The notes under the pieces were generated by a model. The model worked only from the letters and a program-made list of their open reading frames with translations. It did no database searches and had not been told where the DNA came from. A program made the position numbers and the translations under genes. From Pleurocapsaceae cyanobacterium CSU_1_1 (GTDB lineage Bacteria; Cyanobacteriota; Cyanobacteriia; Cyanobacteriales; Xenococcaceae), in contig JAAUOU010000044.1 of the NCBI GenBank assembly GCA_012034765.1, positions 1-35,309 on the forward strand: a stretch of DNA of 35,309 bases, read 5' to 3'. Shown here piece after piece: positions 8,267 to 26,544 of the stretch. Each line of letters starts with the position of its first letter. The stretch's first letter is position 1.

Positions 8267-8687
8267 TATTCTCTTGCCCTCTATTTTATTAGGTTAATAC
8301 ATTAAAACATTCTTAATAAGACTCATCATATCGTAAAGTAAGCACATTTCAAGACCTGACCCAGAATCAATTTCAACCTTAATTAGGCTAATAATCTGAA
8401 GATAATAATTGTCTGTAGGTAAAAATATTGCGGTGCAGTCTCACAAGCGATTAGATAACCAATTTTGACCTTGAAAGGTAGGGAACAATTGACTTTGAAT
8501 TCTGGGAAGACCCAGCTTTATAGCCCAGACTTACCGATTTTATGCTGCTTGTTTATCTTTAAGTATAACTAAGTCTAAAAAATTCTTGCTATCATAGCCC
8601 GTATTGTTTAAGGCAATGAGAATATACAGGGTGCTTTACTTGGAAACAAGTTAGTATTTTGTAACCCTCAACCAAGATATACGTGCT
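8267..8687. other. intergenic region between divergent gap2 and murC
   Basis: About 420 bases carrying both upstream regions. One small hairpin, CTGGG-AAGA-CCCAG, lies at 8502-8515. I see no RNA gene, repeat family or reading frame. Promoters could not be assigned with confidence. Confidence 0.4.
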
Positions 8688-11864: not shown

Positions 11865-12210
11865 GATTAATGTAAAGTTTTTAGCTCGTACTCTACTCTA
11901 CGATCTACTTATGAAAGATGAGGTTGAGCGTCTTGGATTTATCTCTATTGATGTAGAATCTCTGTCGATGGCAAATGAGCTGGCAAATTTAATGCTACTT
12001 ATAAGGATGTTTTCGGGGAAAAGCTTGAAGTTTCTGAATGACCAATGATGCCGTGACCCACCCCATTTTGAGAGAATGGTTATGTATTCCGTGGATTTGG
12101 ATGCTACACTCAAACCAATAAAACTTAATCGGTTCTTTCAAAAAAACTGTTTAATATTTATTTCTTGGTATTGAAGAGTCTAAATAAAAGCAAGAGTATT
12201 ATGAAATTTG

Positions 12211-13314
12211 ATGTTTAATAGACTGTCTCAATGCAGTAATATTATTTGCTGGAGCTTATCTGGATTAATATCTTCGTTTCTAGTCTTTATTATCCAAACA
12301 CCTGTATTAGCTGAAATTTTGAGAGTCGGTACAAAACCTTTTGCACCTTTTGCTTTTGTACAGGATGGTGAATACATTGGTTTTAGTATCGAGCTTTGGG
12401 AAGAAATAGCTGAAGAACTAGAATTAGAATATGAGTTATATGGCGAAAAAACGGTTACAGATCTTTTAGAATCAGTAAGTTCGGGTAATACCGATATTGC
12501 GATCGCAGGTATTACGATCACTTCTGAACGAGAGAAAACCGTAGACTTCTCTCATTCTTTTTTTGAATCGGGATTGCAAATATTAGTTCCTATACATTCT
12601 GAACCTTCTCCCGTGAACACTTTTCTTTGGCTGATTTTTTCGCCGATTTTATTGAAAACTATGGGGGTATTGCTAATAGTAATCAGCATTTCTGCTCATT
12701 TAATTTGGTTTTTTGAGCGGAAAAACAACCCTGAAATGTTCCCCCAAGAATATTTCAAGGGAATATGGGAAGCCTGCTGGTGGTCTGTGGTAACGGTAGT
12801 CACTGTTGGTTATGGAGATAAAGCCCCTATCGGTATCCCAGGCAGAATTGTGGCAACTATCTGGATGTTTACAGGAGTCTTGTTAGTCTCTTATTTTACT
12901 GCTTCAGTCAGTTCGGCTTTAACAGTACAGCAGCTAGAAAGTTCTGTTCAGGGATTGGAAGATCTCAACGGCAAAAGAGTGGCAACAGTCAAAGGAAGCA
13001 CCGCAGCAGAATATTTAGCCAATCGTCCGATGAAAAAAGTTGAATATGAATTTATCGAAGATGCCTTTCAATCTTTAGAAGAATCAAAGGTAGATGCTGT
13101 AGTTTATGATGCGCCTGTACTCCAAAATTATGCTGCGCGAGATGGTGTGGGTAAAGCGAAGGTTGTTGGTTCGACTTTTGAACGGCAAAGTTATGGTATT
13201 GCTTTGAAGACGAATAGTCCTTACCGAGAAGAAATTAATCAAGCCATATTATCCATCGTCGAAAGTGGTGCTTACGATGAGATTTATAAAAAATGGTTTG
13301 GAGAAACCGAATAG
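12211..13314 (+). CDS. GluR0-like ligand-gated potassium channel
   Basis: A 367-residue membrane protein. An N-terminal signal helix ends near P-V-L-A. It is followed by the first lobe of a periplasmic amino-acid-binding domain (L-R-V-G-T-K-P-F-A-P-F-A-F; D-I-A-I-A-G-I-T-I-T-S-E-R). A pore module then interrupts the binding domain: a membrane helix (~142-166), a pore loop with the K+ selectivity filter T-V-G-Y-G-D (198-203) and a second helix (~209-230). The second lobe follows (D-L-N-G-K-R-V-A-T-V-K-G-S-T; V-V-Y-D-A-P). This order matches Synechocystis GluR0, a glutamate-gated K+ channel ancestral in design to ionotropic receptors. ATG 12211 is preferred over the TTG just before it. The ligand is not certain. 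Confidence 0.9.
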   Translation: MFNRLSQCSNIICWSLSGLISSFLVFIIQTPVLAEILRVGTKPFAPFAFVQDGEYIGFSIELWEEIAEELELEYELYGEKTVTDLLESVSSGNTDIAIAGITITSEREKTVDFSHSFFESGLQILVPIHSEPSPVNTFLWLIFSPILLKTMGVLLIVISISAHLIWFFERKNNPEMFPQEYFKGIWEACWWSVVTVVTVGYGDKAPIGIPGRIVATIWMFTGVLLVSYFTASVSSALTVQQLESSVQGLEDLNGKRVATVKGSTAAEYLANRPMKKVEYEFIEDAFQSLEESKVDAVVYDAPVLQNYAARDGVGKAKVVGSTFERQSYGIALKTNSPYREEINQAILSIVESGAYDEIYKKWFGETE

Positions 13315-13330
13315 AAAATTATGAATTTGA

Positions 13331-13455
13331 TTAAATTTGCCATAATTTGATCGCGCCTTGAGAGTCAATGCCTGCTAGGATTTGCCCATTAGATGAAATC
13401 GCGATCGCACCAGTTTGCCAACTAGGAGTAGCGATCGCCGCTATTTCTAGTTGCG
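13331..13455 (-). pseudogene. out-of-frame last WD40 blade of the FHA-WD40 gene
   Basis: Directly after the annotated stop, the next frame reads Q-L-E-I-A-A-I-A-T-P-S-W, then G-A-I-A-I-S-S-N-G-Q-I-L-A-G-I-D, then I-K-L-W-Q-I and a TAA at 13331-13333. This is a further WD40 repeat, matching the spacing of N-Q-A-E-I-A-x-L-T-G-H-K and x-I-x-L-W-N in the preceding repeats. One extra A in the A6 run (13456-13461) would make L-W-N-K-K-T-Q-L-E-I and extend the protein by about 40 residues. Confidence 0.85.
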
Positions 13456-14697
13456 TTTTTTGTTCCACAATCTAATTGTTTGGTCTGCTCCAGCACTAGC
13501 TATGGTCTGCCCATCGGGGCTAAAATTAATACTGCTAATTCCTTGTTTGTGACCAGTAAGCACTGCTATTTCTGCTTGATTGGCGACATTCCACAATCTA
13601 ATTGTTTTATCTTTACTGCCACTAGCTAATGTCTGTCCGTCGGGACTAAATGCTAAAGATTCAATGGCTAATTTATGTGCCGAAAAAGAAGCGATTTCTG
13701 CTTGATTAGAAATATTCCAAAGCTTAATTGTCTTGTCTGCACCACCACTGGCTAATATCTGTCCGTCGGGACTAAATGCTAAAGCATTTGCTGCTAATTT
13801 ATGTCCTGTCAAAGTGGCAATTTCTGCCTGGTTAGAAATATTCCATAGTTTAATGGTTTTATCTTTGGCTGCGCTGACTAATACTTGAGCATCTGGGCTA
13901 AACGCCAGGGCTAATACTGACTGAGAATTTTCGGCTATTTGACCTAGTTCTGTTGCAGATATTAAATTCCATAAGCTTTTCCCCGAATCAACAGCGAGAG
14001 TATTTGGGCTTGTGTTAACTGGCTTGGAAACAGGAGTAGTTTTGATCTCGGAAACGGTGGCGTTGACTACAGCCTTAGCGGGAGTAAGTTTTTGGTCTTC
14101 GGGTTTAGGTTCGGCAATAGATTCATTTTCAGCGGAAAGCTTTTGTTCTTTTACTCGATCCTTAGCATTTTTAGCTATAGGTGCTTGTGCTGGTTCGGGT
14201 TCTTTAACAATTTCTTGGACAGCAGGAATAGTGGCATTGGCTGCTACAACTTCGGGAGTCTCCGTCGGTTTATTCTCGGATTTAGATGGACTAGGTTCTG
14301 GTTCGGGTATATCAACCTTTATTTCGCTAGGCTGTACCATCACGGTGGCATTGAGAGTAAGACATTCAAAGCTAAATTCAGGACCTTTTGCGCCTAAAAT
14401 AATGCGATCGCCTGATTCTAATTGTTGATTATTGCTGACTGGGCGATCATTTACTAAAGTTCCATTAGTTGTTCCTAAGTCATTTATTTGCCAACTGGCA
14501 TCAACTAATTTTATCTCTGCATGACGACGAGATACGGTGACGAATTCATGAGGATCTAAAGCAATCTGACAATCTGGAGACCGACCAATTACCGTGTTTT
14601 CTACTGTAGATAGGATATGTTTCTTGGCGGCAGACTGCTCGATTGACCCTGTTTTTAAGGTAAGCGTAGCCCAATTTCCATTATGCTCAGTTGTCAT
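13447..14697 (-). CDS. FHA domain protein with C-terminal WD40 repeats
   Basis: A 416-residue, probably cytoplasmic protein. Residues ~20-110 form an FHA phosphothreonine-binding domain with all hallmarks: I-G-R-S-P-D-C-Q-I, V-S-R-R-H-A-E-I and L-G-T-T-N-G-T-L-V-N. A Pro/Glu/Lys/Val-rich linker (~115-245) separates it from four WD40 repeats (A-F-S-P-D-G-Q-x-L-A-S-G; T-I-K-L-W-N). A fifth repeat is present in the DNA but out of frame. A GGAG lies about 9 bases before the ATG. The gene is divergent from the coiled-coil/FHA/kinase genes, so it likely reads phosphorylation made by that kinase while the WD40 part binds a partner. That link is inference from context. Confidence 0.9.
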   Translation of the reverse strand: MTTEHNGNWATLTLKTGSIEQSAAKKHILSTVENTVIGRSPDCQIALDPHEFVTVSRRHAEIKLVDASWQINDLGTTNGTLVNDRPVSNNQQLESGDRIILGAKGPEFSFECLTLNATVMVQPSEIKVDIPEPEPSPSKSENKPTETPEVVAANATIPAVQEIVKEPEPAQAPIAKNAKDRVKEQKLSAENESIAEPKPEDQKLTPAKAVVNATVSEIKTTPVSKPVNTSPNTLAVDSGKSLWNLISATELGQIAENSQSVLALAFSPDAQVLVSAAKDKTIKLWNISNQAEIATLTGHKLAANALAFSPDGQILASGGADKTIKLWNISNQAEIASFSAHKLAIESLAFSPDGQTLASGSKDKTIRLWNVANQAEIAVLTGHKQGISSINFSPDGQTIASAGADQTIRLWNKKRN

Positions 14698-15121
14698 AAT
14701 TTTTTTTCTCCAAGATTGATTGCCATACCTTATTTTGTAAAATTAAATATTATATTCATAAATACATATCTAAAATTAAGTTTTATAATCCGAATTTATT
14801 GATAAAACATAAGGAAAATTGAATTTTCGATTCATAACTAAACATAATATACTTCTATTCAATAACAGTTTCGGTAGCAAGAGCTTTAAATGCATAACTA
14901 ATCTTAATTTAAACCGTTTAATTCTGTTGAATAGAGAGTAGCATTTCTCAATAAGTAAAATAGAAAATCTGTTTGATATGCATTTGGCTAAATAATTACT
15001 ATCAGCAACTGCATACTTCATGGCAAGATATCGTATTTATCTAAGATCTTAGAATCATACTTAAGTCTCTAAATCTAAAATTGTTTTTAACTTTAACCCA
15101 AAGTTTTTTATTCTTAAAAAA
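14698..15121. promoter_or_regulatory. shared divergent upstream region
   Basis: 424 very AT-rich bases separate the FHA-WD40 gene from the first coiled-coil gene and must hold promoters for both directions. An 80-codon open frame on the minus strand here has no family features or good ribosome site, so I do not call it. No strong palindrome was seen. Confidence 0.4.
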
Positions 15122-16015
15122 ATGGCTGAAGATATTAATCTGCTGATCGACGAATGCGATCAAAAATCTCAAGTGTTGTTAATAGATGCAGAAAAAGCTT
15201 TTGATGAGGTAGATCAAATTGTGGAATTTGCTACTAATCTAGCCGATGAGCTAACCACTGCTAATCAAGAAGCCCAAGAAAGCTGGTCAGCAATTATTGC
15301 CGAATTAGAAGCAGCAGAAGAGTCTCTAGAAACTGAAATGGAAAGCACCAGAGAAAAACTGACTTCTTTTCAAGAAAAGATTACTGAAGTTGGTGATGGG
15401 TTAACCGAAGCTATGGAACGTTTTAGCACTCGTTTAGACGAAGTAAAAAGCCGTAAAGCAGAAATGGCAGAACAGCTAGCAGAGGAAAAGGAAAATACCA
15501 CTTCTGGTTTAAATACTTTTGCCGAAAATATCAATGCTTTACAAGAAGCGATCACAGGATATGAAGAAGCTGCCAACGCTAATTTAGAAGAACACAATTC
15601 GGCTGTTACCACTGCTCAAGAAAGCTTTGATGAGAAAAAAGCAGATCTGATAGAACAGTTTAGCGACCTTGAAAGCCTATTGCAAGAGCAGCTAGAAACT
15701 TTAGGAGACAACTTCTCTAGCGTGGCTGAAGAAAGCGATAGCAAAAAGCAAGATTTAGAAACCAGTTTTGATTCCCTAGCTGAAGGAGTAACTACCGCGA
15801 TCGCCTCTAAGTTTGCCGAAGAAGTGATGGGAGATCTGACGGGATCATCCGAAGGACTAACTCAGGCTTTCTCTGCATTAGATAGTGCGGGGGGAGAAAT
15901 GGGAGATCTGCTTAAAGGTAGCATCGGCGAAATTGTCGATCAAATCTCAAAGGTTACCGACCTAATCGACGAGGTAAGACCAGTATTAGACACCGCTCAA
16001 GCACTACTGGGCTAA
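15122..16015 (+). CDS. acidic coiled-coil protein 1 of 4
   Basis: A 297-residue, Glu/Ala/Ser-rich protein that is almost wholly helical, with heptads across residues ~20-230 (for example E-S-L-E-T-E-M-E-S-T-R-E-K-L). No signal peptide or membrane helix is seen. The C-terminal ~60 residues (from D-L-T-G-S-S-E-G-L) are less charged and end A-Q-A-L-L-G. Its composition and length match the next three genes, so it appears to be one of four tandem paralogues or co-functioning scaffolds. It contains one Cys (position 12) and one Trp. Unlike the next three, no Shine-Dalgarno sequence precedes its ATG; an A-run does. Function unknown; a filament, scaffold or membrane-surface role is plausible. Confidence 0.85.
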   Translation: MAEDINLLIDECDQKSQVLLIDAEKAFDEVDQIVEFATNLADELTTANQEAQESWSAIIAELEAAEESLETEMESTREKLTSFQEKITEVGDGLTEAMERFSTRLDEVKSRKAEMAEQLAEEKENTTSGLNTFAENINALQEAITGYEEAANANLEEHNSAVTTAQESFDEKKADLIEQFSDLESLLQEQLETLGDNFSSVAEESDSKKQDLETSFDSLAEGVTTAIASKFAEEVMGDLTGSSEGLTQAFSALDSAGGEMGDLLKGSIGEIVDQISKVTDLIDEVRPVLDTAQALLG

Positions 16016-16060
16016 ATTTTGCATCAATGCAGCAATTAATAAATTAACAGGAGAATCATT

Positions 16061-17047
16061 ATGGCAGCAGCAGAAGTTTTAGCCCAGAATGTCGAAGAAT
16101 CTAGTGAGAAACTGCAACAGATTATCGACGCGATTGAGTTGGCATCGACGCAAATGACCGAACTTTCAGGACAGCTAGAATCGACTAATACTAGCTTGGA
16201 AGAGGCAAAAAATAGCATTATCGAAGGTCTAGAAGCTACTACTCAAGAATTTGAGCATACGCAAACCGAATTTGCTAGCTCTCGCGATGAGATGTTAAGC
16301 GTAATGACGAGCTTACAGGAGTCCCTAACCGAACTAGAAGAAAAGTTAGGCAATGGTGGCGAAACGGTAGATGGTTCCGAAAATGAATTTGGTTCGGCAA
16401 ACGAAAGCCGTCAGAGCGAACTAGACAGCAGCCTAGAGGAGGTAATAGCAGCGTTTAACCAACTGGCTGCAACTATTTCCGAGATGGAAGAAAATGCTGA
16501 GTCTAGTTCAGAAGAGACAGAAAGCTTTTTTAATGACTTTACCGAGAATGTTAAAGGCTTGCAGGAGAAAATGGAAACCGCACAGTCGGACACTGAAGGT
16601 GACTTTGAGGAGGTGGCAAACAATATTGGTGAAACCCTCAAATCTAATCTGGATTCTATCTTAGGAGAATTTAGCAGCCAGCTTACAGGCGAACAACTAG
16701 GGGAAATTAGCTCTGGCTTTGAAGAGTTAAGCGGTAACTTTGAAGAGATGTTTACCTCCTTTGGGGAAGATACAGGGGAATTAGGAGACAAGCTGAAACA
16801 AACTCTCAACGAAGTCTTAGAAAATGCCCAAGATTATGCTGGCGAGCAAATGAAAGACAAGATTACCGAAAGCTTCCAGGATGCGATCGAAGATTCAGTT
16901 CAGGCAATGATGCAAGAAGCGGTAGAAAACACGGTGATGATGAGCGTTGGTGCTAGCGCTACTGGTGCTTTGTCTCCCTTGCTGCCAGCGATCGTAGCAG
17001 CCAAACTGGCGACAGGAGCAATCAAGGCGGTGATGGATCTTTTTTAA
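16061..17047 (+). CDS. acidic coiled-coil protein 2 of 4
   Basis: A 328-residue, strongly acidic coiled-coil protein lacking a signal peptide. Residues ~5-250 are long helices rich in E, S, L and Q. It differs from its neighbours by an uncharged, Ala/Gly/Met-rich C-terminus (V-M-M-S-V-G-A-S-A-T-G-A-L-S-P-L-L-P-A-I), ending A-V-M-D-L-F. That tail could insert into or lie on a membrane, or pack against another subunit. A strong AGGAG sits 8 bases before the ATG, and the gap from gene 1 is 45 bases, so they are co-transcribed. Family unknown to me. Confidence 0.85.
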   Translation: MAAAEVLAQNVEESSEKLQQIIDAIELASTQMTELSGQLESTNTSLEEAKNSIIEGLEATTQEFEHTQTEFASSRDEMLSVMTSLQESLTELEEKLGNGGETVDGSENEFGSANESRQSELDSSLEEVIAAFNQLAATISEMEENAESSSEETESFFNDFTENVKGLQEKMETAQSDTEGDFEEVANNIGETLKSNLDSILGEFSSQLTGEQLGEISSGFEELSGNFEEMFTSFGEDTGELGDKLKQTLNEVLENAQDYAGEQMKDKITESFQDAIEDSVQAMMQEAVENTVMMSVGASATGALSPLLPAIVAAKLATGAIKAVMDLF

Positions 17048-17082
17048 TCAGTATTTAACAAAAATTTTAGGAGTATATAACC

Positions 17083-18015
17083 ATGAGTCAGTTAGGCGAA
17101 TCATTAGACTTAATGTCTCAGCTAATTATGGATTTTCCAGATCGCTTAGATGGGATTATCGTTCAGGCGCAGGAAGTAGAAGCCGAGGCAAATCAGCTTA
17201 CGGAAAATGTGGCAGAGAAACAGCAACAGGTAGCAGATATTCTGGCACAGGTGCAGCAAGCTTTGAATGAAATGCGAGAAGAGGTGGCAGAACATCAATC
17301 TCAAGCTGAATCTCAGGTAGAGAGTTTTGAAGCTAGCGTCCAAGAATTGACTGGTTTTCTCAACGAAGCTACTGAAAAACTCGATGGAGAGGTAGAGGCG
17401 ACTCAAGAAAAACTAGGTCAGTATCAAAGCTTGCTCAACGACAACGAAGAATCAACCAAAGCTCAGTCAGAAGAAAGCAACGGCGAACTAGAAGCAGCGC
17501 GAACTGCGATTAACGACAGTCAAGAACAGCTAGCCTCGGCAATGGAAAGCACCATTGAAAAGATCGACACCCTACGATCAAAGCTAGAGTCTGCCAGCAG
17601 TTCGATGGAACAAGAGGTAGATAAATTTAGCGAACAGGTTAACCAAGGACAGCAAGAAGTTAGCAGCAACATCAGCACCATGGCAAGTGAGTTTGCCAGC
17701 ATTGCCCAAAACTTTAGTAGTAGCCTCAGCGATACTGCCGACATGATGTCTGGCGGTGTGGACGATCTGATGGAAAAAACGAAAGAAACAATTGATGGAG
17801 AGATTAAAGAGCTAATCGACACGGCAGTAGCAGAAATCACTGGTTCGGTTGACAATATGGCGAAAAAGCTTAGTGATTCGGAGGAAGAGTCTTCAACTCA
17901 AAGACAGCTATTAGAGCCATTATTTGAAAGTTTAGATGGCTTAATCGCACCTTTAAAAGATGGGGTAGATTCCGTCAAAACAGCAGCCGATAAGTTTGGC
18001 GTAGATTTTGGTTAG
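17083..18015 (+). CDS. acidic coiled-coil protein 3 of 4
   Basis: A 310-residue Gln/Glu-rich coiled-coil protein. The N-terminal segment M-S-Q-L-G-E-S-L-D-L-M-S-Q-L-I-M-D-F is more hydrophobic than the rest. Long heptads follow (V-E-A-E-A-N-Q-L-T-E-N-V-A-E-K-Q), and a short terminal domain (L-L-E-P-L-F-E-S-L-D-G-L-I-A-P-L) ends D-K-F-G-V-D-F-G. There is no cysteine, tryptophan, signal peptide or membrane helix. TTTTAGGAG precedes the ATG and the gap from gene 2 is 35 bases. The function cannot be named from sequence. Confidence 0.85.
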   Translation: MSQLGESLDLMSQLIMDFPDRLDGIIVQAQEVEAEANQLTENVAEKQQQVADILAQVQQALNEMREEVAEHQSQAESQVESFEASVQELTGFLNEATEKLDGEVEATQEKLGQYQSLLNDNEESTKAQSEESNGELEAARTAINDSQEQLASAMESTIEKIDTLRSKLESASSSMEQEVDKFSEQVNQGQQEVSSNISTMASEFASIAQNFSSSLSDTADMMSGGVDDLMEKTKETIDGEIKELIDTAVAEITGSVDNMAKKLSDSEEESSTQRQLLEPLFESLDGLIAPLKDGVDSVKTAADKFGVDFG

Positions 18016-18063
18016 GAAGATTGGCAATTATTAGATTTTATTAATTAAACAGGAGCATTACAG

Positions 18064-18966
18064 ATGGCAGTAGATTTTGAAACCACCGCAGCTGAGACGG
18101 TAATCAAGCTACAGGAATTGATGAATCGCGCTGACCAAGCCAGCGAAGATTTATCGACAGCCAGGGAAAAGTTAGCCCAGGTATCGTCAGAATTTGACAG
18201 TAACTGGACTAGTCTGGCAGAACGGGCAGAAGGATTATTAGAGCGAATTTCTAGTGCCAGGGAAGATTTGAACGGCGAATCTGAAGCAGTAACTCAAGGT
18301 TTTGCTGACATGGAAAGCAGTGTCGAATCGCTCCAGTCTAGTGCCAGCGAGGGACTAGAAGAAACCATTAGCGAGTTACAAGCATTGGGCAACGAAGCCG
18401 ATAGCGATGGTTCAGAACTTAACGATGTGTTTGAGTCGGTGAGAGAAACGATTAGTAGTCTGCAAACTAAAGTCGAAGAGGTCAAAGAAAACCTTACCGA
18501 AAGCCTTTCTGAGTCGGGGGATAATTTAGCCAACGAGGTTAGCAATGCGATCGCCGATTTTCAAGCGGAAATTGAAGATAAATCCGCCGAAACTCAAGAA
18601 GCAATATCGGACGAAGCGACCAATAAACTGAGCGAAATGCTAGAAGGTTTAACCACCCAGCTTGAAACCATCCAAACAGAGTTGAAGGAAAAAGGGGAAG
18701 CTAAAGCAGAGGAAACCAATAATTCTTCTCAAGAGACGATGGACAATTTCACCAGCCAGCAAGAAGAGATCTTTGGCGATCTAATTGCTAAGGCAGAAGA
18801 GTTGAAACAAGCCATCACGGATATTGCTGAACTTGTAGATACCACTAGCGACACCGCCGACACCGCAAAGGATACTTTAGTTGACGGGGTTGAATTAACT
18901 AACGTTGGCGTAGGTACAGTAGTTGGTATTCTTGACGATATCAGAGAAATACTCGGTGGATTCTAG
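18064..18966 (+). CDS. acidic coiled-coil protein 4 of 4
   Basis: A 300-residue acidic coiled-coil protein, again without signal peptide or membrane helix. Heptad-rich helices span residues ~10-250. A Thr/Asp/Ala-rich hinge (D-T-T-S-D-T-A-D-T-A-K-D-T) leads to a C-terminal amphipathic segment (V-G-V-G-T-V-V-G-I-L-D-D-I-R-E-I-L-G-G-F). Threonines in the hinge would be natural targets for the kinase encoded downstream and for FHA binding, but that is speculation. AGGAG lies about 8 bases before the ATG; the gap from gene 3 is 48 bases, and 141 bases separate it from the FHA gene. Confidence 0.85.
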   Translation: MAVDFETTAAETVIKLQELMNRADQASEDLSTAREKLAQVSSEFDSNWTSLAERAEGLLERISSAREDLNGESEAVTQGFADMESSVESLQSSASEGLEETISELQALGNEADSDGSELNDVFESVRETISSLQTKVEEVKENLTESLSESGDNLANEVSNAIADFQAEIEDKSAETQEAISDEATNKLSEMLEGLTTQLETIQTELKEKGEAKAEETNNSSQETMDNFTSQQEEIFGDLIAKAEELKQAITDIAELVDTTSDTADTAKDTLVDGVELTNVGVGTVVGILDDIREILGGF

Positions 18967-19107
18967 CAGTATAAGTTCCTAACACCTTATCTCTAATACT
19001 GTCAGCCTAATTTTAGCCAGCTAGAAACTAAATAGGTTGGTTTCTGTGAAGAGAAGTAGGATTTAGTTTATAGGCGATCGCCATTCACTCAATTGTAAGT
19101 TGAATTC

Positions 19108-21264
19108 ATGCCACCAAAAGCAGATAAATTAAGTCAAACCATCGAAAATCTTCAGCTTTTTTTGAGTAGAAAAGCCGATGAACGGGAAGATTTAGCCGAG
19201 ATATCCCGACAGCTTGCACAATTAAACAAAACTCTCAATCAGAAAAAACTCACGGTTCAAATTGTCAGTCAGTCTCCAATTTTAGCTCAGGCTGTTTTCG
19301 ATTTGATTAATAGTCAAACTGAACTCAAGCAATTTTTTCAACTAAAATTTGATGCTATCCCCAAACCATTAACACAAACTGCACCGCAGCATTGTGCTAG
19401 CTTAAAATTAAGGCAAAATCTAACCGATGCTACTGGTTTGCATCAGTATCTTGAACTAAGCTCTAAATGCGAGTATGTAATCGGCAGATCTCCCGAAGCT
19501 GATGTAAAAATTAATCCTCAGCTTTATCAGGGAGTATCTTGGAATCATGCAGTAGTTCAGCCTTTAATAGAAGCAGAAAAGGCTATTCAATGGCAAATTA
19601 GCGATCGCCATAGTACCAACGGCACTTTTGTTAATGGAGAGCGGTTAACAGACTCTCGATTGCTCAACTCAGGAGATATTATTACCCTTGCCTGTCCCCA
19701 AGCTGGAGAAAACGTAGCGGAACTAGCTTTTACGCTCCGAATTGAAGCACTCGATCTAGAAATAGATCGAGAATACTGGGACGTGGTGGATTGCGATCTA
19801 TTAATGGTGGTGATAGACAGCAAACAGCAACTAGCACTAGAAGTGCAAAACTTCGTGCAAAATCTCAACCAAACTTACATCTCTCGGTATTATTTACTGG
19901 TAGATACCCCCGATCCCAAACAGGAAGAGGTGGCAGTAGCGGAAAAAAATCTACAAGAGATCGAAGTCTGGTTAAAAAATGATGTTTTAGAACCTAGGTT
20001 TGAATTAATACCACTCTATCTCAAATCTTTTTATACAGAAGACGGTAACAATAACCTAGACCCTAAACAGCAAAAAAAACAAGAACGATTTACCAAAATT
20101 CTTGGTGATCTCGTCAAACGTCAGCCAGAAAATATCCTTGCTAAACGGATCGCGGTTCAAGTTGTTCGTGCAGCAGAACCCGTCGAACCTTTTCTAGAAC
20201 AGCAACAGCAAGAATTAGCCGAAAAGCTAGCTCAAGCACAGCAAGAATTAGTCGCCTTGTCAGAAATTAATCTTAAGGAAGTTAGTAAAAAAGCGATCGT
20301 CGAAGCTAATCAAACTAAAGATAAGTTTTTTAAAGCAATCAAGTTAGACATGGCTCAATCTAAGGCTGCATTTGTAGATGTTTATAGTAAGAAAAGCGTC
20401 GTCTATCAGATTCAGGATTTTGTTGATAGTTTAAACCCCGTAGTTTTGAATAAAAATGGACAGAAAATTATTCAGCTAAATGATGATTCCGCCGATTCTG
20501 ATGATATTAATCCAAGTCTTATCGGTTTTTGTACAGATTCACTGGAAAAGTGGGCAATAGAAGAATGGTACAAAGTCAGTCATGTCTACTGTAATGGTGG
20601 TTTGCATGGCTTACTAGACAGACTTAATGAAAAAACCAATGTCATTCCCGAAGTCCTATCGCAATCCCCGTTTTCTCCTCCCGATGATCTTAACGTGCAG
20701 GATAATTTTCTCCTCTCTTTTGCAGGAACTAATTGCGAAACCAGTCATAAGCAAAAGTCTCTCGGTGCATACATTATGAACCACCTAAGAAGTCAGATGA
20801 TGCAGATTATGATGATGCTTACTTTGGTGCTGGGTTTTGTCGGTATTAAATCTAGTAAAAATCAAATGACCCAAGGCTTGTCTAATTACTTTAAACAATA
20901 TCCTTGGCTGTTTGGCATTTTTATTTTTGGAATTATTTTTCTTTTGGTCAGTGCTTACAATAGAGAGAACGATCTCAAGTTGGATGAGGCGGGCGTAAAA
21001 CTTAAGAAAGATCTTTCTAGTTACTACCAATCTTTTGCTAAAAACTTACTAGATAAAGTTATTCAAGATCTGAACTTAAATCTAGAGTTAGAAGAAAACA
21101 AAATTACCAATGGACTAGAAATTGTCAGCGATATCTATAGCGATCGCTTAGTGGAAGTCGAAAAACAACAAATCCGAATTGAAAATAATTTAGAGCAATA
21201 CAAAACTCAACAAAAAAGCTTGGCTACAGAATTATCTGAGTTTGAAAAACTTAAGCAAATGTAG
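19108..21264 (+). CDS. FHA protein with membrane hairpin, resembling a degenerate dynamin-like protein
   Basis: A 718-residue protein. Residues ~1-45 are helical. Residues ~48-75 (L-T-V-Q-I-V-S-Q-S-P-I-L-A-Q-A-V-F-D-L-I-N) have the strand-loop-helix pattern of a P-loop GTPase start but lack GxxxxGK(S/T). An FHA domain follows at ~105-210 (V-I-G-R-S-P-E-A-D-V, V-S-W-N-H-A-V-V, H-S-T-N-G-T-F-V-N-G). Residues ~225-310 (C-D-L-L-M-V-V-I-D-S; R-Y-Y-L-L-V-D-T-P) look like the later half of a GTPase fold without a clear N-K-x-D. Long helices lead to two membrane helices (~563-581 and ~599-616), then coiled coil. FHA and membrane hairpin are secure; the dynamin-like reading is inference. The gene lies between the coiled-coil genes and the kinase. 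Confidence 0.85.
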   Translation: MPPKADKLSQTIENLQLFLSRKADEREDLAEISRQLAQLNKTLNQKKLTVQIVSQSPILAQAVFDLINSQTELKQFFQLKFDAIPKPLTQTAPQHCASLKLRQNLTDATGLHQYLELSSKCEYVIGRSPEADVKINPQLYQGVSWNHAVVQPLIEAEKAIQWQISDRHSTNGTFVNGERLTDSRLLNSGDIITLACPQAGENVAELAFTLRIEALDLEIDREYWDVVDCDLLMVVIDSKQQLALEVQNFVQNLNQTYISRYYLLVDTPDPKQEEVAVAEKNLQEIEVWLKNDVLEPRFELIPLYLKSFYTEDGNNNLDPKQQKKQERFTKILGDLVKRQPENILAKRIAVQVVRAAEPVEPFLEQQQQELAEKLAQAQQELVALSEINLKEVSKKAIVEANQTKDKFFKAIKLDMAQSKAAFVDVYSKKSVVYQIQDFVDSLNPVVLNKNGQKIIQLNDDSADSDDINPSLIGFCTDSLEKWAIEEWYKVSHVYCNGGLHGLLDRLNEKTNVIPEVLSQSPFSPPDDLNVQDNFLLSFAGTNCETSHKQKSLGAYIMNHLRSQMMQIMMMLTLVLGFVGIKSSKNQMTQGLSNYFKQYPWLFGIFIFGIIFLLVSAYNRENDLKLDEAGVKLKKDLSSYYQSFAKNLLDKVIQDLNLNLELEENKITNGLEIVSDIYSDRLVEVEKQQIRIENNLEQYKTQQKSLATELSEFEKLKQM

Positions 21265-21345
21265 TTGTTGCTCCACCTCTCTATAAATCTCTATAAAACT
21301 ATAAAAGAATTATATATAAATCTAATTAAACAATCTATTTTATTC

Positions 21346-23370
21346 ATGGAAACTATTTTAGGCTCACGCTATCGGGTAATTAAATATATTGCTAAGGGTG
21401 GATTTGGTAAAACTTATCTAGCAGAAGATATTCAGCTACCAAATAAAGATAAATGTGTAGTAAAGCAGCTTTATCCTAGCGTTGACGACCCGAATTTTAT
21501 TCAAGTAGCGAGACGTTTATTTAAGAAAGAAGCAGAAACTCTTTATACGTTGGGAATTCATGACCAAATACCTCGACTTATGGCATATTTTGAGCAAGAT
21601 GAGAAATTTTATTTGGTGCAACAATATATAGAAGGTTATACCCTAAGTAAAGAACTTATTTTAGGAAAACCTTGGTCAGAAGGAAAAGTTATTGAATTAC
21701 TGATAGATTGTTTGAATATCCTCGATTTTATTCATGGAAAAAGCGTAATTCACCGTGATGTCAAACCTGACAATTTAATTCGTCGCAGTTGGGATCATAA
21801 GCTGGTACTAGTAGATTTTGGGACTGTAAAAGAAGTTATTGCCGAGCAAACTCAATTAGTTCCTGCAACCGTAGCAGTAGGAACAAGAGGTTATATGCCC
21901 ACTGAACAAGCAAGAGGAAAACCCCGTACCACCAGCGATATTTATGCTTTGGGCATTATTGCGATCCAGGCTTTAACTGGAGTGCATCCTGTCGAGTTGA
22001 TTGAAGATGAAGACGGTGAAATTATTTGGCGCGAACAAGCTCAATGTACCCCACAATTAGCGGATATTATTGCCAAAATGACCAGATATCATTTTAAAGA
22101 ACGCTATCAATCGGCTCAAGAAATTATCACAGCTTTAGCTAGTTTGGGAAATAAACCCGAAGCTATTCGTCAAACACAAGCAGTTCAGTATACTCCAACA
22201 GTTCAGTTAAGTGCTTCTCAAATAGCCAATTTGTCCAAAAAGCCTCAAGGCACATCCATAAATTCCTCATCCTTAAATAGCGCTCGCTCAGTTATCGACA
22301 CGCCAGAAAATCTAACTAATTTTCACTCTGAATTACCTGAATTACTTACGAACAATGAACAGCAACCACAATTAGAAACTCAATCCAACTCACTTGAAAC
22401 CGAATCAAATTCCATGTCTAAGGCTCAAAAATCTCGTAAAACCCTAACTACTCTAGGAGTAGCTTTAATATTAGGAGCGATCGCGTCTGGGGGAATGTAT
22501 CTCCTCAAGCAAAGAACTACCCAGTCTGACCAAAACAATATCGAAAAACAGGTAAATCATTTTAGTGAAATGTTAGAAAAGCAAGAATATCAAGCTTGCT
22601 ATGACGAAGCAGTTGCTATGAATGCTCAAGCTGCTGATGTGGCTAACTCAGCGAGTATGCCCAAAGAGCAACTACAAGAATTTGAAGCTCAGTGTGGTCT
22701 AGCTCAAGCCCAAGCAGAGGCAGAAGATATTAAGTATGGCGCAGCCTTAGCGATCGCCAAAACTCTACCGAAAAACACTTCTATAGATGCAGAAATTCAA
22801 CAACAAGTCGATTTTTGGTCAGGGCAGCTATTAGAACAGGCAACTAAACTCTACGAACAAGACGGAAATATTGAACAAGCTCTTGAGACAGTCAAGCAAA
22901 TCCCCCAAGACAGTACCGTCAGATCTAGGGTGATCGATCTCAAAGACTCTTGGAAAGCAGAGTTTGCAACTAATGAAGCAATTATGACCACTGCTGAAAA
23001 AGCCTTGAGTGAAGAAAAATGGGTGTACGCCAAACAACAAGCTATCAAAGTTAAAGACTCATCTCCTACAATGTATTGGCAGGAAAAGGCGAAAGCAATT
23101 ATCTCTCAAGCGGAAGAAGGAATTGCCGAGACGGTCTCCACTGAAGCAGAAAAACCTAAAGCGATCGCTCCTAGCTCACAAATCAAAGAAGTTCCTATTC
23201 CTGAAATAATCAAAGTTAATAAACCTGTTATTACCGAGCCTAAACCAACAATTCGCGTCAACCAAGATTCATCAGAATCATTACGAGATTTAGATGACAA
23301 CAGCGAATCTCTCCCTAGCGCACCTTCTAATTCGTCGCCACCAAATGATGTTCCTTTAAGAGATTTGTAA
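21346..23370 (+). CDS. membrane-anchored serine/threonine protein kinase
   Basis: A 674-residue Hanks-type kinase. Residues ~8-255 form the kinase domain: G-loop A-K-G-G-F-G-K-T-Y, lysine in C-V-V-K-Q-L (40), catalytic H-R-D-V-K-P-D-N (136-143), D-F-G (157-159) and G-T-R-G-Y-M-P-T-E-Q. A low-complexity juxtamembrane region follows, then one membrane helix (~357-377). The C-terminal ~290 residues are helical, TPR-like, presumably outside the cytoplasm, ending in a Pro/Ser-rich tail. The tail carries L-R-D-L twice, once internally (E-S-L-R-D-L-D-D) and once as the last residues (P-L-R-D-L). ATG 21346 is chosen over a TTG at 21265 because the kinase fold starts at M-E-T-I-L-G-S-R-Y. Confidence 0.93.
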   Translation: METILGSRYRVIKYIAKGGFGKTYLAEDIQLPNKDKCVVKQLYPSVDDPNFIQVARRLFKKEAETLYTLGIHDQIPRLMAYFEQDEKFYLVQQYIEGYTLSKELILGKPWSEGKVIELLIDCLNILDFIHGKSVIHRDVKPDNLIRRSWDHKLVLVDFGTVKEVIAEQTQLVPATVAVGTRGYMPTEQARGKPRTTSDIYALGIIAIQALTGVHPVELIEDEDGEIIWREQAQCTPQLADIIAKMTRYHFKERYQSAQEIITALASLGNKPEAIRQTQAVQYTPTVQLSASQIANLSKKPQGTSINSSSLNSARSVIDTPENLTNFHSELPELLTNNEQQPQLETQSNSLETESNSMSKAQKSRKTLTTLGVALILGAIASGGMYLLKQRTTQSDQNNIEKQVNHFSEMLEKQEYQACYDEAVAMNAQAADVANSASMPKEQLQEFEAQCGLAQAQAEAEDIKYGAALAIAKTLPKNTSIDAEIQQQVDFWSGQLLEQATKLYEQDGNIEQALETVKQIPQDSTVRSRVIDLKDSWKAEFATNEAIMTTAEKALSEEKWVYAKQQAIKVKDSSPTMYWQEKAKAIISQAEEGIAETVSTEAEKPKAIAPSSQIKEVPIPEIIKVNKPVITEPKPTIRVNQDSSESLRDLDDNSESLPSAPSNSSPPNDVPLRDL

Positions 23371-23494
23371 TATAAAGTAATCAAAGAGGAAGCAGAGAAA
23401 GCAAGGGAAAGATAAAGGCTTCTTATTTTGTATTCACCTTAATACTTTGTTCCTCTTTCTTCAGCCAAGTTTGAAGTTTCAAGCCATAAGCTAG

Positions 23495-25009
23495 CTACAA
23501 ACTTCTAAGATTTTCTTCCACTGGCGCGTTGTTTTGGCTAGCGGGGTTTTCTGTAGGAGCATTATTTTGATTGGGTTCAATCTTTGGCAACTGAAATTGA
23601 TTTTTTTCAGATTTTTGTCTTGCCTCCTCGTTGCGAAGAGCTTTTTGAGCTTTGTTCAAACTGTCCGTAGCAACGTTATAACTCTCTTCATCTCCTTGTT
23701 GAAAAAATAGTTGCGAAGCCTTCTCAAAATCAGCTACTGCCCCTGCAAAATCTTTTTGATCATAACGAATTGCGCCACGGTTATGATAGGAGTTACCATA
23801 ACCAGGATCGATTTTAATTGCACTATTGTAGTCTGACAAAGCTCCAGAAACATCATCTAAATCTTCGCGCACAATACCGCGATTGAGATACGACCAAGGA
23901 TCGGTCGGATTAATTTGTAGGGCTTTGTTATAGTCTTCGAGTGCTTCTGATTTGTTTCCCAAGCGATAGTTAGCTAAACCACGACTAAAATAAGCTAAAG
24001 AAAAATTGGGATTAACTTTAATTGCCTTATTGTAATTAGAGATCGCCGAATTAATATCTCTTTGGGTGTAGTCAATCAAACCTTGATAATATACCGCTAA
24101 GGCATTATTGGGATTTTTTTCTGATGCCTCGATTAAATAATCATTCGCTCTAGAAGCATCACCCCTTTGAAGTAGTTCGATACCTTCAACATATTTTTTG
24201 GTTGCTTCAACATCAACTTCTCCCTCTTCTTGATCGGGCTTGTCACTATTGACAATTAGACTCGATTTATTTAATCCTGCCAAATCGAGAGAATTTAGAA
24301 AGCTATCAATTGGAATAGCTGCATTAAAACCTGTTTTCAAAGGTTCGGGAATACTAGAAGACTCGTTTTTGACACTGCCAATAACATCCCCTTGCCCATG
24401 AATCCCAATTAAATGACCACTAGCATCAAATACTGGTCCGCCACTCATGCCACGGCGAGTTAGTGCCTGATAACGTACAGCATAACCTTCACTGGCAGCC
24501 TCTCGAACGCTAGTTACCATACCTGTAGTAAACTCATGTTCTCGCTCGGCATTAATATCCACCGACAAAGGAAACCCCGAAACATAAATGTTCGCTCCAG
24601 CCGTAGCATATGCTGAATCTCCAAAGGTGGCGGTAGGATAAACTTCAGTACTATCAAACTTGACCACCGCTAAGTCTAACCCTGTTTTTGCTTTGAGGCT
24701 GCTCACTTCCTTAGCAGAGTGTTGCTGATTTTTGATTTTGATGATGTAACCCACGTTAGGGTTAAGAACTACGTGATTGGCAGTAAGCACCGTATAGGTA
24801 TTATTTTGTTTAGCAATAATCACCCCCGATCCCCCAGGAATTCCCAGGGTATTCTCAATCTTGACTGTCGTTTCTAAAGCGATCACTGCAATTTCCGTCG
24901 CGCTTTTTGCCATTACCCCAGAAGATTGAGTTATGATTAGTGCTACCGTAACTGCCGTTCCCGATATAATACTTGTTACTAAACTAGAATTTAAAAAAAA
25001 ACGATTCAT
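23495..25009 (-). CDS. exported trypsin-like serine protease with TPR repeats
   Basis: A 504-residue protein. An N-terminal signal peptide (hydrophobic core I-I-S-G-T-A-V-T-V-A-L-I-I) leads to an S1-type protease domain at ~45-250. The catalytic triad appears in T-A-N-H-V-V (His), G-L-D-L-A-V-V-K-F (Asp) and R-G-M-S-G-G-P-V-F (Ser). Residues ~270-440 hold about five TPRs (Y-Y-Q-G-L-I-D-Y; F-S-R-G-L-A-N-Y-R-L-G; L-N-R-G-I-V-R-E). An Asn/Pro/Gln-rich tail ends in E-N-L-R-S-L. It has no PDZ domain, unlike HtrA/Deg. It is last in the COP23-protease operon, 7 bases after its neighbour, and converges on the kinase gene. Substrate unknown. Confidence 0.92.
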   Translation of the reverse strand: MNRFFLNSSLVTSIISGTAVTVALIITQSSGVMAKSATEIAVIALETTVKIENTLGIPGGSGVIIAKQNNTYTVLTANHVVLNPNVGYIIKIKNQQHSAKEVSSLKAKTGLDLAVVKFDSTEVYPTATFGDSAYATAGANIYVSGFPLSVDINAEREHEFTTGMVTSVREAASEGYAVRYQALTRRGMSGGPVFDASGHLIGIHGQGDVIGSVKNESSSIPEPLKTGFNAAIPIDSFLNSLDLAGLNKSSLIVNSDKPDQEEGEVDVEATKKYVEGIELLQRGDASRANDYLIEASEKNPNNALAVYYQGLIDYTQRDINSAISNYNKAIKVNPNFSLAYFSRGLANYRLGNKSEALEDYNKALQINPTDPWSYLNRGIVREDLDDVSGALSDYNSAIKIDPGYGNSYHNRGAIRYDQKDFAGAVADFEKASQLFFQQGDEESYNVATDSLNKAQKALRNEEARQKSEKNQFQLPKIEPNQNNAPTENPASQNNAPVEENLRSL

Positions 25010-25016
25010 ATGTAAA

Positions 25017-25871
25017 TTAATTTTGCGATGCTTGAGAAGTAAATTGTAAATAAGTTGAAATGGGAATTCCCCAGCTAGAGTTAATCATGGTTTCCAGCAT
25101 TTCGGGCGTTGGTTCGCTTCCATCTTCAAAAGTGTATACCCCAAAATCGGGGTCACGATGCTTACCTCGACCATGAACCCCAACCAAAAAACCCTTGGTA
25201 TTAAAAATAGGTCCTCCACTCATGCCTATTTCTGTATTATTGGTATATCCTAAGTGATACCCCTCTGGTAATGACTTGGGCGGAATTAAAGATATTTCTC
25301 CTTGAGTCAGCCTGAATGCTTGAGTTCCCAAGGAAATGGTATTAACCGAACTATTATTTTGTTCGTAGAGAGGGAAACCCGCTGCGTATACTTTTTCTCC
25401 TACTTTTAGATGATCAGAAGCAATAGTAGCTACTTGATAATTTTCAAAACTTTGAAACTGGACAATAGCCAAATCAAAATTACCTAAGTGTTGTGGAGGT
25501 TGCAATAGCTGATGTATTTGACCGTCAGCAGTCATAACTTGAAAAACATTATTAGTCCCTACGACGTGCCAGTTAGTAAGAACAGTATATGTTTGTCCTG
25601 CTTGATAAATAATGACCCCCGTTCCAGCAGCATTATCATGAATAATTCTGACAGTGCTAGACTGTGCTAATTCATAAATATCTTGACTATAGGTATCGTC
25701 AGGAAGAACGTATCTCGGTACTGCTTGGGTTTGTAAGGGTTGTTGCCAAACACCTGCACAAATTATGACAGTAGGTAAGAGTATTTTTAATCCCCATTTA
25801 TAGTTATTTAGCAAAGATAGAACCGCGTAGTTAAGAATTTTTGGTGGAAATTGTCTGCGACAAATTTTCAT
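25017..25871 (-). CDS. exported trypsin-like serine protease
   Basis: A 284-residue protein. Its N-terminus is long and basic before a hydrophobic helix (I-L-L-P-T-V-I-I-C-A-G-V-W), which could be a signal peptide or an anchor. The protease domain has L-T-N-W-H-V-V-G (His), N-F-D-L-A-I-V-Q-F (Asp) and I-G-M-S-G-G-P-I-F (Ser), then G-V-H-G-R-G, closely parallel to the next gene. There are no TPR or PDZ domains, and it ends S-Q-A-S-Q-N without the R-D-L motif. It lies 22 bases after COP23 and 7 bases before the TPR protease, so the three form one operon. Confidence 0.9.
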   Translation of the reverse strand: MKICRRQFPPKILNYAVLSLLNNYKWGLKILLPTVIICAGVWQQPLQTQAVPRYVLPDDTYSQDIYELAQSSTVRIIHDNAAGTGVIIYQAGQTYTVLTNWHVVGTNNVFQVMTADGQIHQLLQPPQHLGNFDLAIVQFQSFENYQVATIASDHLKVGEKVYAAGFPLYEQNNSSVNTISLGTQAFRLTQGEISLIPPKSLPEGYHLGYTNNTEIGMSGGPIFNTKGFLVGVHGRGKHRDPDFGVYTFEDGSEPTPEMLETMINSSWGIPISTYLQFTSQASQN

Positions 25872-25893
25872 TCTGTTCGAGCGCTATGCTTGC

Positions 25894-26544
25894 TTATAAA
25901 TCTCTATAGTTGTCGGGAGTTACTTGTTGCGGTGCAGTTTTTTTAGTTGTGCTAGTTTTGGGTTCTGATGTTGCTTCGACTGTGGTTTCATCTAGTCTTG
26001 TTCCTACATCAATATAGGGAATTGCCGTAACTGATTCGTAATTTGACTCCAAGCCTTCCTCTCCTTTACGCCAAGCAAAGAGATTATTTAACGCTTGTAT
26101 TCCGTCTTGACCAGGCTTAAGAGTGTAGATAATTCCTTCGCATGGTCCTTGATCTTTGCTAGCAACACAAATGACTGATTGATTATTAACCGTGCCTAAA
26201 GTCACATATCTTAGTTGCTTGTTCTTGCGGTAGGTTTCTAAGCGAGAACTGACCTCTTGGCAACGTGTATCTGGACTCCATCCAGAACCAGAAAAATGAT
26301 CGCTGACCCACTGAATCCAGGGTTCTGAATTTCCTTGACTACTTTGATACATAGTTGTCGGAACTTTTCCACTACTACTATCGCAAAAAAAGCCAGACTG
26401 GGGTGTTAAAGCAGGAGTTGTTACTGGTTGGGCTGTCGGCACGGGGTTTTGAGTAGGATTAGGAAATTGAGCCAGACTAGGTAGAGAGATCGCGCCAAGA
26501 CAACTTGCCATAACAATATAAATCAAGCTTACTCTATGTTTCAT
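25894..26544 (-). CDS. COP23-domain exported protein
   Basis: A 216-residue protein. It begins with a signal peptide (Y-I-V-M-A-S-C-L-G-A-I-S-L-P-S-L-A-Q) followed by a Pro/Thr-rich spacer. The core (~50-165) matches the circadian-oscillating-protein COP23 family: F-F-C-D, W-I-Q-W-V-S, R-C-Q-E-V-S-S-R-L, V-N-N-Q-S-V-I-C, G-P-C-E-G-I-I-Y-T-L-K-P. Its four cysteines probably form disulfides outside the cytoplasm. A Thr/Lys/Pro-rich tail ends in D-N-Y-R-D-L, the motif shared with the kinase and TPR protease. ATG at 26544 is preferred over a TTG two codons upstream. First gene of the operon; molecular function of COP23 proteins is not known to me. Confidence 0.82.
   Translation of the reverse strand: MKHRVSLIYIVMASCLGAISLPSLAQFPNPTQNPVPTAQPVTTPALTPQSGFFCDSSSGKVPTTMYQSSQGNSEPWIQWVSDHFSGSGWSPDTRCQEVSSRLETYRKNKQLRYVTLGTVNNQSVICVASKDQGPCEGIIYTLKPGQDGIQALNNLFAWRKGEEGLESNYESVTAIPYIDVGTRLDETTVEATSEPKTSTTKKTAPQQVTPDNYRDL

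Follow-up and report, generated by a model that had tools for sequence, protein, structure and literature searches.

A cyanobacterial locus joining a Hanks-type kinase, a predicted FHA-bearing pseudo-dynamin and four co-inherited coiled-coil proteins

Do ten neighbouring cyanobacterial genes for FHA proteins, coiled coils, a membrane kinase and exported proteases form one system, and if so of what kind? The genes lie in a stretch of 35,309 nucleotides (the window) of Pleurocapsaceae cyanobacterium CSU_1_1 (contig JAAUOU010000044.1, labelled C90), a cyanobacterial draft genome of 4.6 Mb. An FHA-WD40 gene stands divergent from four coiled-coil genes (CC1 to CC4), which are followed by the genes of a membrane FHA protein and of a transmembrane Hanks-type Ser/Thr kinase (STK). 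A preliminary description of the window proposed a phospho-regulated scaffold coupled to an exported protease set. On the evidence below, the locus may be one envelope-to-cytoplasm signalling and membrane-scaffold system, a reading to which we give a probability of about 0.45. Its membrane FHA protein looks, from its modelled fold, like a dynamin-like protein (DLP) with lost GTP motifs, a helical stalk and a hairpin of two transmembrane segments, and is called here the FHA pseudo-dynamin (pDLP).

The evidence that the genes belong together comes from their distribution. The pDLP was first searched in 60 relatives and then in 386 genomes of the phylum, where it matches 85 genomes, nearly all in the FHA region only. 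A match over most of the protein, FHA included, is found in eight of the 386 (G000, G157, G165, G196, G229, G231, G409 and G423, with the matches in G229 and G409 each coming in two pieces), and the CC1 profile matches exactly these eight. A second sample of 388 genomes of the order overlaps with the first, seven of the eight being among the 27 genomes of the order with CC2 (16 of 149 genera, 10 families). A pDLP match beyond the FHA domain occurs in 39 of the 388, including all 27 CC2 genomes. The remaining 12 comprise G014, with pieces of CC3 and CC4 and a COP23-trypsin block on a separate contig; G541, which is 67% complete; the very divergent G048 and G052; and eight genomes with a sister-clade protein. 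Both the CC genes and the pDLP are found in families f1, f2, f8, f9, f12, f13, f14, f18, f26, f33 and f38. These counts are inflated by close relatives, and since two candidates per genome were scored in both samples, a second pDLP could be missed.

Joint retention extends to genomes in which the genes are far apart. A distance of 0.6-1.0 Mb separates the CC set from the pDLP gene in G157 and G165, and in G196 they are on different contigs; therefore, linkage cannot explain their joint retention there. In a tree of 40 homologues (G409, G505, G558 and G541 left out), the 26 pDLPs from CC loci form one clade (100/99), while those from loci lacking CC genes fall elsewhere. G051 has one copy of each type, as labelled by locus. 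The arrangement in the window is far above chance, because genes for the CC proteins and for the FHA protein are repeatedly found together across cyanobacterial families. The features of the locus, with their window coordinates, are as follows.

12208 to 13314, forward strand: SBP-channel gene (Pfam SBP_bac_3 2.1e-30, Lig_chan, Ion_trans_2), outside the range of the preliminary description.
13331 to 14697, reverse strand: FHA-WD40 gene, divergent from CC1 (FHA E 1e-18, WD40 E 5e-49; open frame 13447-14697).
15122 to 16015, forward strand: CC1, acidic coiled coil of 297 amino acids (aa) (orthologues of 295-298 aa; 11-row alignment with gaps in 4 columns).
16061 to 17047, forward strand: CC2, acidic coiled coil of 328 aa with a hydrophobic C-terminal segment (orthologues of 328-335 aa; 10-row alignment with gaps in 7 columns).
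17083 to 18015, forward strand: CC3, acidic coiled coil of 310 aa (orthologues of 294-313 aa; 11-row alignment with gaps in 27 columns).
18064 to 18966, forward strand: CC4, acidic coiled coil of 300 aa (orthologues of 296-302 aa; 11-row alignment with gaps in 8 columns).
19108 to 21264, forward strand: membrane FHA protein, the FHA pseudo-dynamin (pDLP) by predicted fold (FHA E 1.1e-14; residues 562-580 and 598-616 hydrophobic).
21346 (ATG) to 23370, forward strand: transmembrane Hanks-type Ser/Thr kinase, STK (Pkinase 1.5e-31; HRD, DFG, one transmembrane segment; tail ...PLRDL).
23495 to 25009, reverse strand: trypsin-TPR protease with a signal-like N-terminus (Trypsin_2 1.4e-23, TPR_2 4e-26; tail ...NLRSL).
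25017 to 25871, reverse strand: trypsin-like protease with a hydrophobic N-terminal segment (Trypsin_2 5.4e-21; no such tail).
25894 to 26544, reverse strand: COP23-family protein with a signal-like N-terminus (COP23 8.6e-36, PF14218; tail ...NYRDL).

Open reading frame calls and Pfam (FHA with WD40, FHA, Pkinase, Trypsin_2 with TPR, Trypsin_2, COP23) place all ten genes in the order, orientation and positions that the preliminary description had given, with the COP23, trypsin and trypsin-TPR block (26544 to 23495, reverse strand) converging on the kinase gene. Two of its gene boundaries need correction. The kinase probably starts at the ATG at 21346 and not at the listed open reading frame start, 21265, and the FHA-WD40 frame is broken: it ends at 13447, and the last WD40 stretch is encoded in a different frame, down to exactly 13331. 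An unbroken gene of 497 aa is present in the relative G012, whose pDLP is 96% identical to that of the window, and the break near the 3' end (13331-13460) is either an assembly error or real. Directly past the COP23 operon, a CBS-PAS-histidine kinase-receiver hybrid is encoded at 27032-29236. Gene maps of relatives are mechanical open reading frame calls typed with custom profiles; a scan of genome contigs gave six loci, five of which encode the pDLP and one of which has an FHA-only match. The test that the preliminary description had proposed, co-occurrence and conserved linkage in distant genera, comes out in its favour for the four CC genes and their membrane FHA partner.

Within this locus, the four coiled-coil genes appear to act as a set, as suggested by their co-occurrence, fixed order and joint duplication. 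Of 26 loci read with a complete set, 25 keep the order CC1-CC2-CC3-CC4, and other genes interrupt the set in G037, G051 and G229. In G592, a second CC1'-CC2'-CC3'-CC4' set follows the first, a similar but interrupted duplicate is present in G231, and partial duplicates are present in G165, G157 and G196. Alignments of CC orthologues have few gaps even at 23-26% identity. In the window, all four proteins are strongly acidic (67-72 Asp and Glu against 14-20 Lys and Arg), and their hydrophobic period runs from 3.54-3.57 in the N-terminal part to 3.6-3.7 or more farther on. These similar runs can be read as four parallel rods in one bundle. The CC1 profile matches those of CC2, CC4 and CC3 at 97-98%, scores of a kind that long coiled coils raise, and common descent of the four is likely from these profiles. 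Pfam and other family matches are scattered and of coiled-coil type, with those above the curated cut-off being DUF6317 (CC1), DUF1351 (CC3) and GldM_1st (CC4). Matches to apolipoproteins, SMC, ZorA and similar proteins were dropped for coiled-coil bias. Threonines that are invariant in the CC alignments, read by eye, are T12, T101 and T279 of CC4 and T301 of CC2, none of which is a clear FHA site.

What kind of protein is inherited with this set? An AlphaFold2 model of the pDLP, built with 13 homologues, has a mean confidence (pLDDT) of 83 and a predicted TM-score (pTM) of 0.55. Foldseek against the PDB places BDLP first (2.9e-8), followed by IniA (2.6e-7) and the DLP pair of Campylobacter; LeoA and mitofusins come farther down, and FHA domains are intermixed. 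In a viral library, the top match is a Klosneuvirus dynamin (E 5.0e-8). In a profile comparison, the pDLP without its FHA columns was set against P-loop GTPases that a PF00350 search had found in the same genomes, in ten groups, and hhalign gave 88% for one real DLP (E 2.9e-6, 126 columns), 64.5% and 57.4% for two other groups and at most 6.6% for the other seven. The alignment covers the latter half of the G domain, where 'DVVDCDLLMVVIDSKQQLALEVQNFVQ' in the pDLP faces 'FIVNADVVLFVSDATAPLSTKELDFIR' in the DLP. A dynamin fold, with G domain, stalk and hairpin or paddle, is predicted by the model, by Foldseek in two libraries and by the profiles of three of the ten groups, with low TM-scores. 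The "FHA-hairpin" of the preliminary description was therefore too narrow a label, as the predicted fold and the partial profile match point to a dynamin-type pseudo-GTPase.

The rival view is that the pDLP is no relative of dynamins, and that the long helices of a helical membrane protein give spurious structural matches. It can draw on sequence searches of Pfam and the PDB with the pDLP, which returned no dynamin match, on Foldseek TM-scores against dynamins of only 0.17-0.25 with a very large whole-protein root-mean-square deviation, on the pTM of 0.55, and on the 5.3% obtained for the largest group of real DLPs, all of which weigh against a dynamin origin. A hinged multi-domain protein may give such low TM-scores, though caution is still needed. 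However, both structure libraries rank dynamins from several subfamilies first, above other helical proteins, and the three higher-scoring profile matches all cover one strand-helix-strand section of the G domain, a pattern that coiled coils would not produce. We give the rival only a very slight chance.

If the fold is correct, the G domain is dead. The G1 or P-loop motif GxxxxGK[ST] is found in none of 19 pDLP homologues, and the G4 motif [NT]KxD is likewise absent at the end of beta5 in all 19 (VDTPDP in the window protein), the only occurrence being an NKQD far downstream (residue 646, L043). The FHA domain is conserved where the GTP motifs are not: G126, R127, S144, H147 and N171 of the phosphothreonine-binding face are invariant in 17 of 17 rows, and we take the Gly-Arg, Ser, His and Asn-Gly positions to have their usual roles in that face. 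The domain is located between the first and the later G-domain strands. Paralogues of about 545 aa that lack it are encoded in a similar setting beside an era-like GTPase gene (L080 9645-11273, L081 9376-11034, L082 8603-10252), also in genomes without a CC match (G011, G007); G011 matches only this paralogue, which is perhaps the ancestral form. Additionally, the G522 pDLP has no FHA domain, its sequence reading straight across the site, and the G558 pDLP matches only from residue 222 onward; both count against the account given here, and the FHA reading is therefore not universal. From the absence of FHA in G522 and in the shorter paralogues, the domain is, on the predicted fold, a modular insert in a dead G domain.

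The window kinase carries the Hanks-type motifs HRDVKPDNL and LVDFG with one transmembrane segment, and its kinase domain looks active from these motifs. Its outer part was read by eye as repeat-like helices. A kinase adjoins the pDLP, within a few kb, in nine of nine loci of the sister clade without CC genes, which sustains the place of the kinase in the set originally proposed and makes the kinase-pDLP pairing look older. Among the very divergent loci, that of G048 has a kinase match nearby, but a weak one, and that of G052 has none. A kinase is fused to WD40 repeats in G051, G037, G229, G559 and G611. In the f14 genomes and G592, there is a second membrane-anchored kinase without HRD and DFG by pattern, and the member whose whole sequence was read is a pseudokinase. 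Kinase-like membrane proteins of this type, lacking HRD and DFG and ending in a CPGPLC tail, are encoded at L189 3488-5143 (the pseudokinase), L076 13866-15599, L101 7903-9621 and L190 5948-7618.

Whether the exported proteins belong to the same system is a separate question, and an alternative is that two unrelated modules merely adjoin, a cytoplasmic one of CC, pDLP, FHA-WD40 and kinase genes and an independent COP23-protease operon. All 26 genomes examined for COP23 (PF14218), whether or not they have CC genes, carry it in 1-14 copies; its presence was therefore dropped as evidence of co-inheritance, and only linkage counts. In 9 of 18 CC genomes, COP23 is away from the locus (G012, G016, G037, G051, G229, G470, G496, G522 and G532), which suits the alternative and counts against a single system; the tailed operon lies on other contigs in G012 (COP23 and trypsin) and G016 (all three genes). 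On the other side, COP23 is at the locus in the other nine (G000, G008, G010, G013, G014, G409, G423, G493 and G592), and also in G196, G231, G494 and G534; for each genome, a rough estimate from a handful of copies in 4-8 Mb gives a chance of a few percent. Furthermore, STK and COP23 are direct same-strand neighbours in several families: in G013, G423, G592, G494 and G493, twice in G409, and in an island of G165 and G157. In G493, a caspase-DUF2808 gene (L256 5865-7322) and a CHAT-TPR gene (7379-9895) lie beside the STK-COP23 pair, and no trypsin was found in that stretch.

A further link between kinase and exported proteins is a shared C-terminal tail. In the window, the STK ends in PLRDL, the trypsin-TPR protease in NLRSL and COP23 in NYRDL. 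Across 16 loci of the window's family (f1), R[DSEQ][LF] ends 12 of 246 distinct open reading frames, carried by 3 of 8 STKs, 4 of 6 trypsin-TPR proteins, 5 of 9 COP23 proteins and none of 223 others (the G008 kinase end, FRDDL, is left out). In f14, a different motif, CPxx[LF]C plus 0-3 residues, ends 18 of 214 open reading frames in 16 loci: 9 of 10 STKs or pseudokinases, 9 of 11 COP23 proteins and none of 193 others. Each motif is absent from the set of the other family, and the short trypsins carry neither (0 of 8 in f1, 0 of 4 in f14). Both counts are favoured by the way they were made, as the motifs were picked after some tails had been seen, and L187-L192 and L259 were retrieved after searches for the f14 tail or for the pDLP and CC genes of the same genomes. 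A second COP23-trypsin-trypsin-TPR operon in G012 is without tails and serves as an internal control. In the G165 island, the core CPPILC is identical in the kinase and in two neighbouring COP23 proteins, and the kinase next to the CC set carries CPGPLC; in G592, the STK ends in VPDDFR and COP23 in VPDLFQ.

These pairings suggest a common envelope binder for the tails. A general C-terminal sorting signal was considered and rejected: in the window's genome, a DNA pattern encoding [ILVFM][RS]D[LF]-stop occurs 35 times, compared with 75 times in a reversed control, and at the 34 sites outside the window (32 regions) no open reading frame of at least 60 aa ends in R[DSE]L, the pattern itself omitting Y or H before R and tails with S or E. 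With linkage and tails both opposed to it, we hold the view of two unrelated modules to be very improbable. The COP23-trypsin block is nevertheless accessory, often linked but not core. Of the "one system" in the preliminary description, the co-inheritance of the CC and membrane FHA genes and the repeated linkage of COP23 and trypsin genes stand, and a core role for the protease block does not; similarly, its tie between the outer part of the kinase and the exported proteins is upheld by the tails shared with COP23 and trypsin-TPR, but not in every genome.

Other genes that the preliminary description had missed, for channels, two-partner secretion (TPS) and pseudokinases, belong to many loci, as judged from gene maps. 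The SBP-channel has a periplasmic amino-acid-binding domain split by a two-transmembrane potassium-channel pore and is presumably GluR0-like. It adjoins the locus in all seven f1 genomes with the system (as two open reading frames in G014, L036), stands beside CC or kinase genes in G231, G196, G165, G157, G494, G534 and G592, and so recurs at the locus in families f1, f14 and f8. Genes for TPS exoproteins (up to ~3000 aa) or TpsB-like transporters lie at L122 8560-17568, L101 2-4015 and 4115-5737, and L189 11611-13998. Pfam was applied to those in L085 (on the same contig as L122) and at L101 4115-5737 only, and it identified an in-locus TPS exoprotein (PF05860, 7.9e-44, G592/L085) and a TpsB transporter (ShlB 7e-29, G196/L101). 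Similar genes, named by the look of their N-termini or sequence, are in or beside the loci of G494, G534, G231, G013 and G493. Between the pDLP-kinase and CC genes of G229 (L079 13244-16559) are a Poly_export/SLBB gene and an AAA_31-domain gene, and between CC4 and FHA-WD40 in G493 (L115 12999-15849) are a DUF1822 gene and a gene of 531 aa, with similar-looking ones in G409 (L078, L257).

Such neighbours raise the possibility of surface-adhesin control, which we take to be LapD/LapG-like, in which the kinase, COP23 and the trypsins would govern release or maturation of the TPS exoprotein, and the rods would serve inside-out transmission. In its favour are the TPS exoprotein and TpsB genes in the loci themselves and, in six genomes (G592, G494, G534, G231, G196 and G013), a trypsin gene placed between those for the exoprotein and the pDLP. 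However, no TPS gene is present among the 20 window open reading frames scanned, and neither TPS genes nor a linked trypsin were noted in the loci read of f18, f2, f9 (G470), G037 and G051, where genes were named by custom profiles. We regard adhesin control as unlikely, and in any case it is compatible with the core pathway and not an alternative to it.

A conflict or defence system of cyanobacteria, with an abortive response, would also account for a kinase, FHA, WD40, protease and dynamin parts, since these occur in such systems, and for the patchy spread over 27 of 388 genomes in 10 families of the order. A defence library contains models of LeoA/LeoB and of kinases, and the locus of G493 has caspase and CHAT neighbours. 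The PADLOC matches, however, are to generic kinase, coiled-coil, WD40 and trypsin domains, and the pDLP and COP23 match nothing. No EAD, vWA-MoxR or STAND component like those in the available part of PMC7159879 occurs among the families listed for the 20 window open reading frames. A sensor channel and exported proteins suit sensing better, and we consider a defence role quite improbable.

The reading that we prefer, an envelope-to-cytoplasm signalling and membrane-scaffold system, starts from what is observed, namely the gene content, the co-inheritance, the pDLP clade, the loss of GTP motifs, the FHA residues and the shared tails. In this proposal, the outer helical domain of the transmembrane kinase would read an envelope signal, and its tail, common to exported COP23 and, in the window's family, to trypsin-TPR, might dock on or compete for one envelope partner. 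The kinase would then phosphorylate threonines in the cytoplasm, and two FHA proteins could read these marks, FHA-WD40 as a soluble adaptor and the pDLP, with its predicted fold, at the membrane. Phosphopeptide binding would replace GTP as the pDLP switch, and the hairpin-anchored pDLP would gather a CC1-CC4 complex at the membrane. The proteases and, in relatives, the TPS exoprotein and the glutamate-receptor-like channel would be exported or sensory accessories. The more specific claim that a phosphothreonine switch stands in place of the dynamin nucleotide switch, with a kinase-driven pDLP building a four-subunit coiled-coil structure under the outer control of a tail code of kinase, COP23 and protease, is tentative and on balance doubtful.

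Several observations pull the other way. The G522 locus has CC1 separate from the rest, with extra CC1-like and CC4-like genes, and its CC order is broken. The structure model of CC1 failed (pLDDT 46), leaving the rod geometry unproven. By simple patterns, the kinase-like neighbour in G532 has no HRD, DFG or transmembrane segment. Tail sharing was not seen in G013, G014, G409, G423 and G493, and some f14 loci entered the tail count by the motif itself. Phosphorylation, FHA binding, assembly and membrane work are steps that we infer, and the fold is a prediction from modelling.

If this reading is true, a phosphorylation reader has taken the place of the GTP switch in the evolution of a membrane-remodelling dynamin. 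Cyanobacterial Hanks kinases would gain a concrete membrane output, the little-studied COP23 family would gain a partner in the kinase tail, and a co-inherited four-rod complex of no known function would be brought to light.

The preliminary description knew of no system with this set, and our literature searches agree, having returned no description of the gene set or of an FHA-bearing dynamin. None of the known systems considered fits the gene set, which appears to be undescribed, its parts coming from known families. Bacterial DLPs (Nostoc BDLP 2j69, IniA 6j72, Campylobacter 5oxf/5owv, LeoA 4aur) resemble the pDLP in the predicted G-domain-like core, helical bundle and hydrophobic hairpin; the pDLP differs in having neither P-loop nor NKxD, in its inserted FHA domain and in its genetic tie to a kinase and four coiled-coil proteins. 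A conflict network of multicellular bacteria includes trypsin, FHA, kinase, beta-propeller and coiled-coil parts (PMC7159879, available in part); dynamin has no occurrence in the available part of the paper's text, and NTPase and EAD cores are not seen among the 20 window open reading frames. Other cyanobacterial COP23-trypsin operons, such as the second operon in G012 and one in G051, have the same COP23, trypsin and trypsin-TPR set, whereas here the set is linked to a kinase locus and has a tail in common with the kinase. A stricter reader could see a variant of kinase-FHA signalling. No type VI secretion structural genes or PP2C (PppA) phosphatase genes are among the families listed for the 20 open reading frames scanned, the scan being confined to the window. 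PknB-GarA and the PpkA-Fha1 pathway of type VI secretion, the latter mentioned in the available part of PMC6213207, likewise combine a membrane kinase bearing an outer region with FHA proteins that carry the usual phosphothreonine-binding residues. Unlike in those pathways, the FHA readers here are a WD40 adaptor and a predicted pseudo-dynamin, and four coiled-coil proteins are added.

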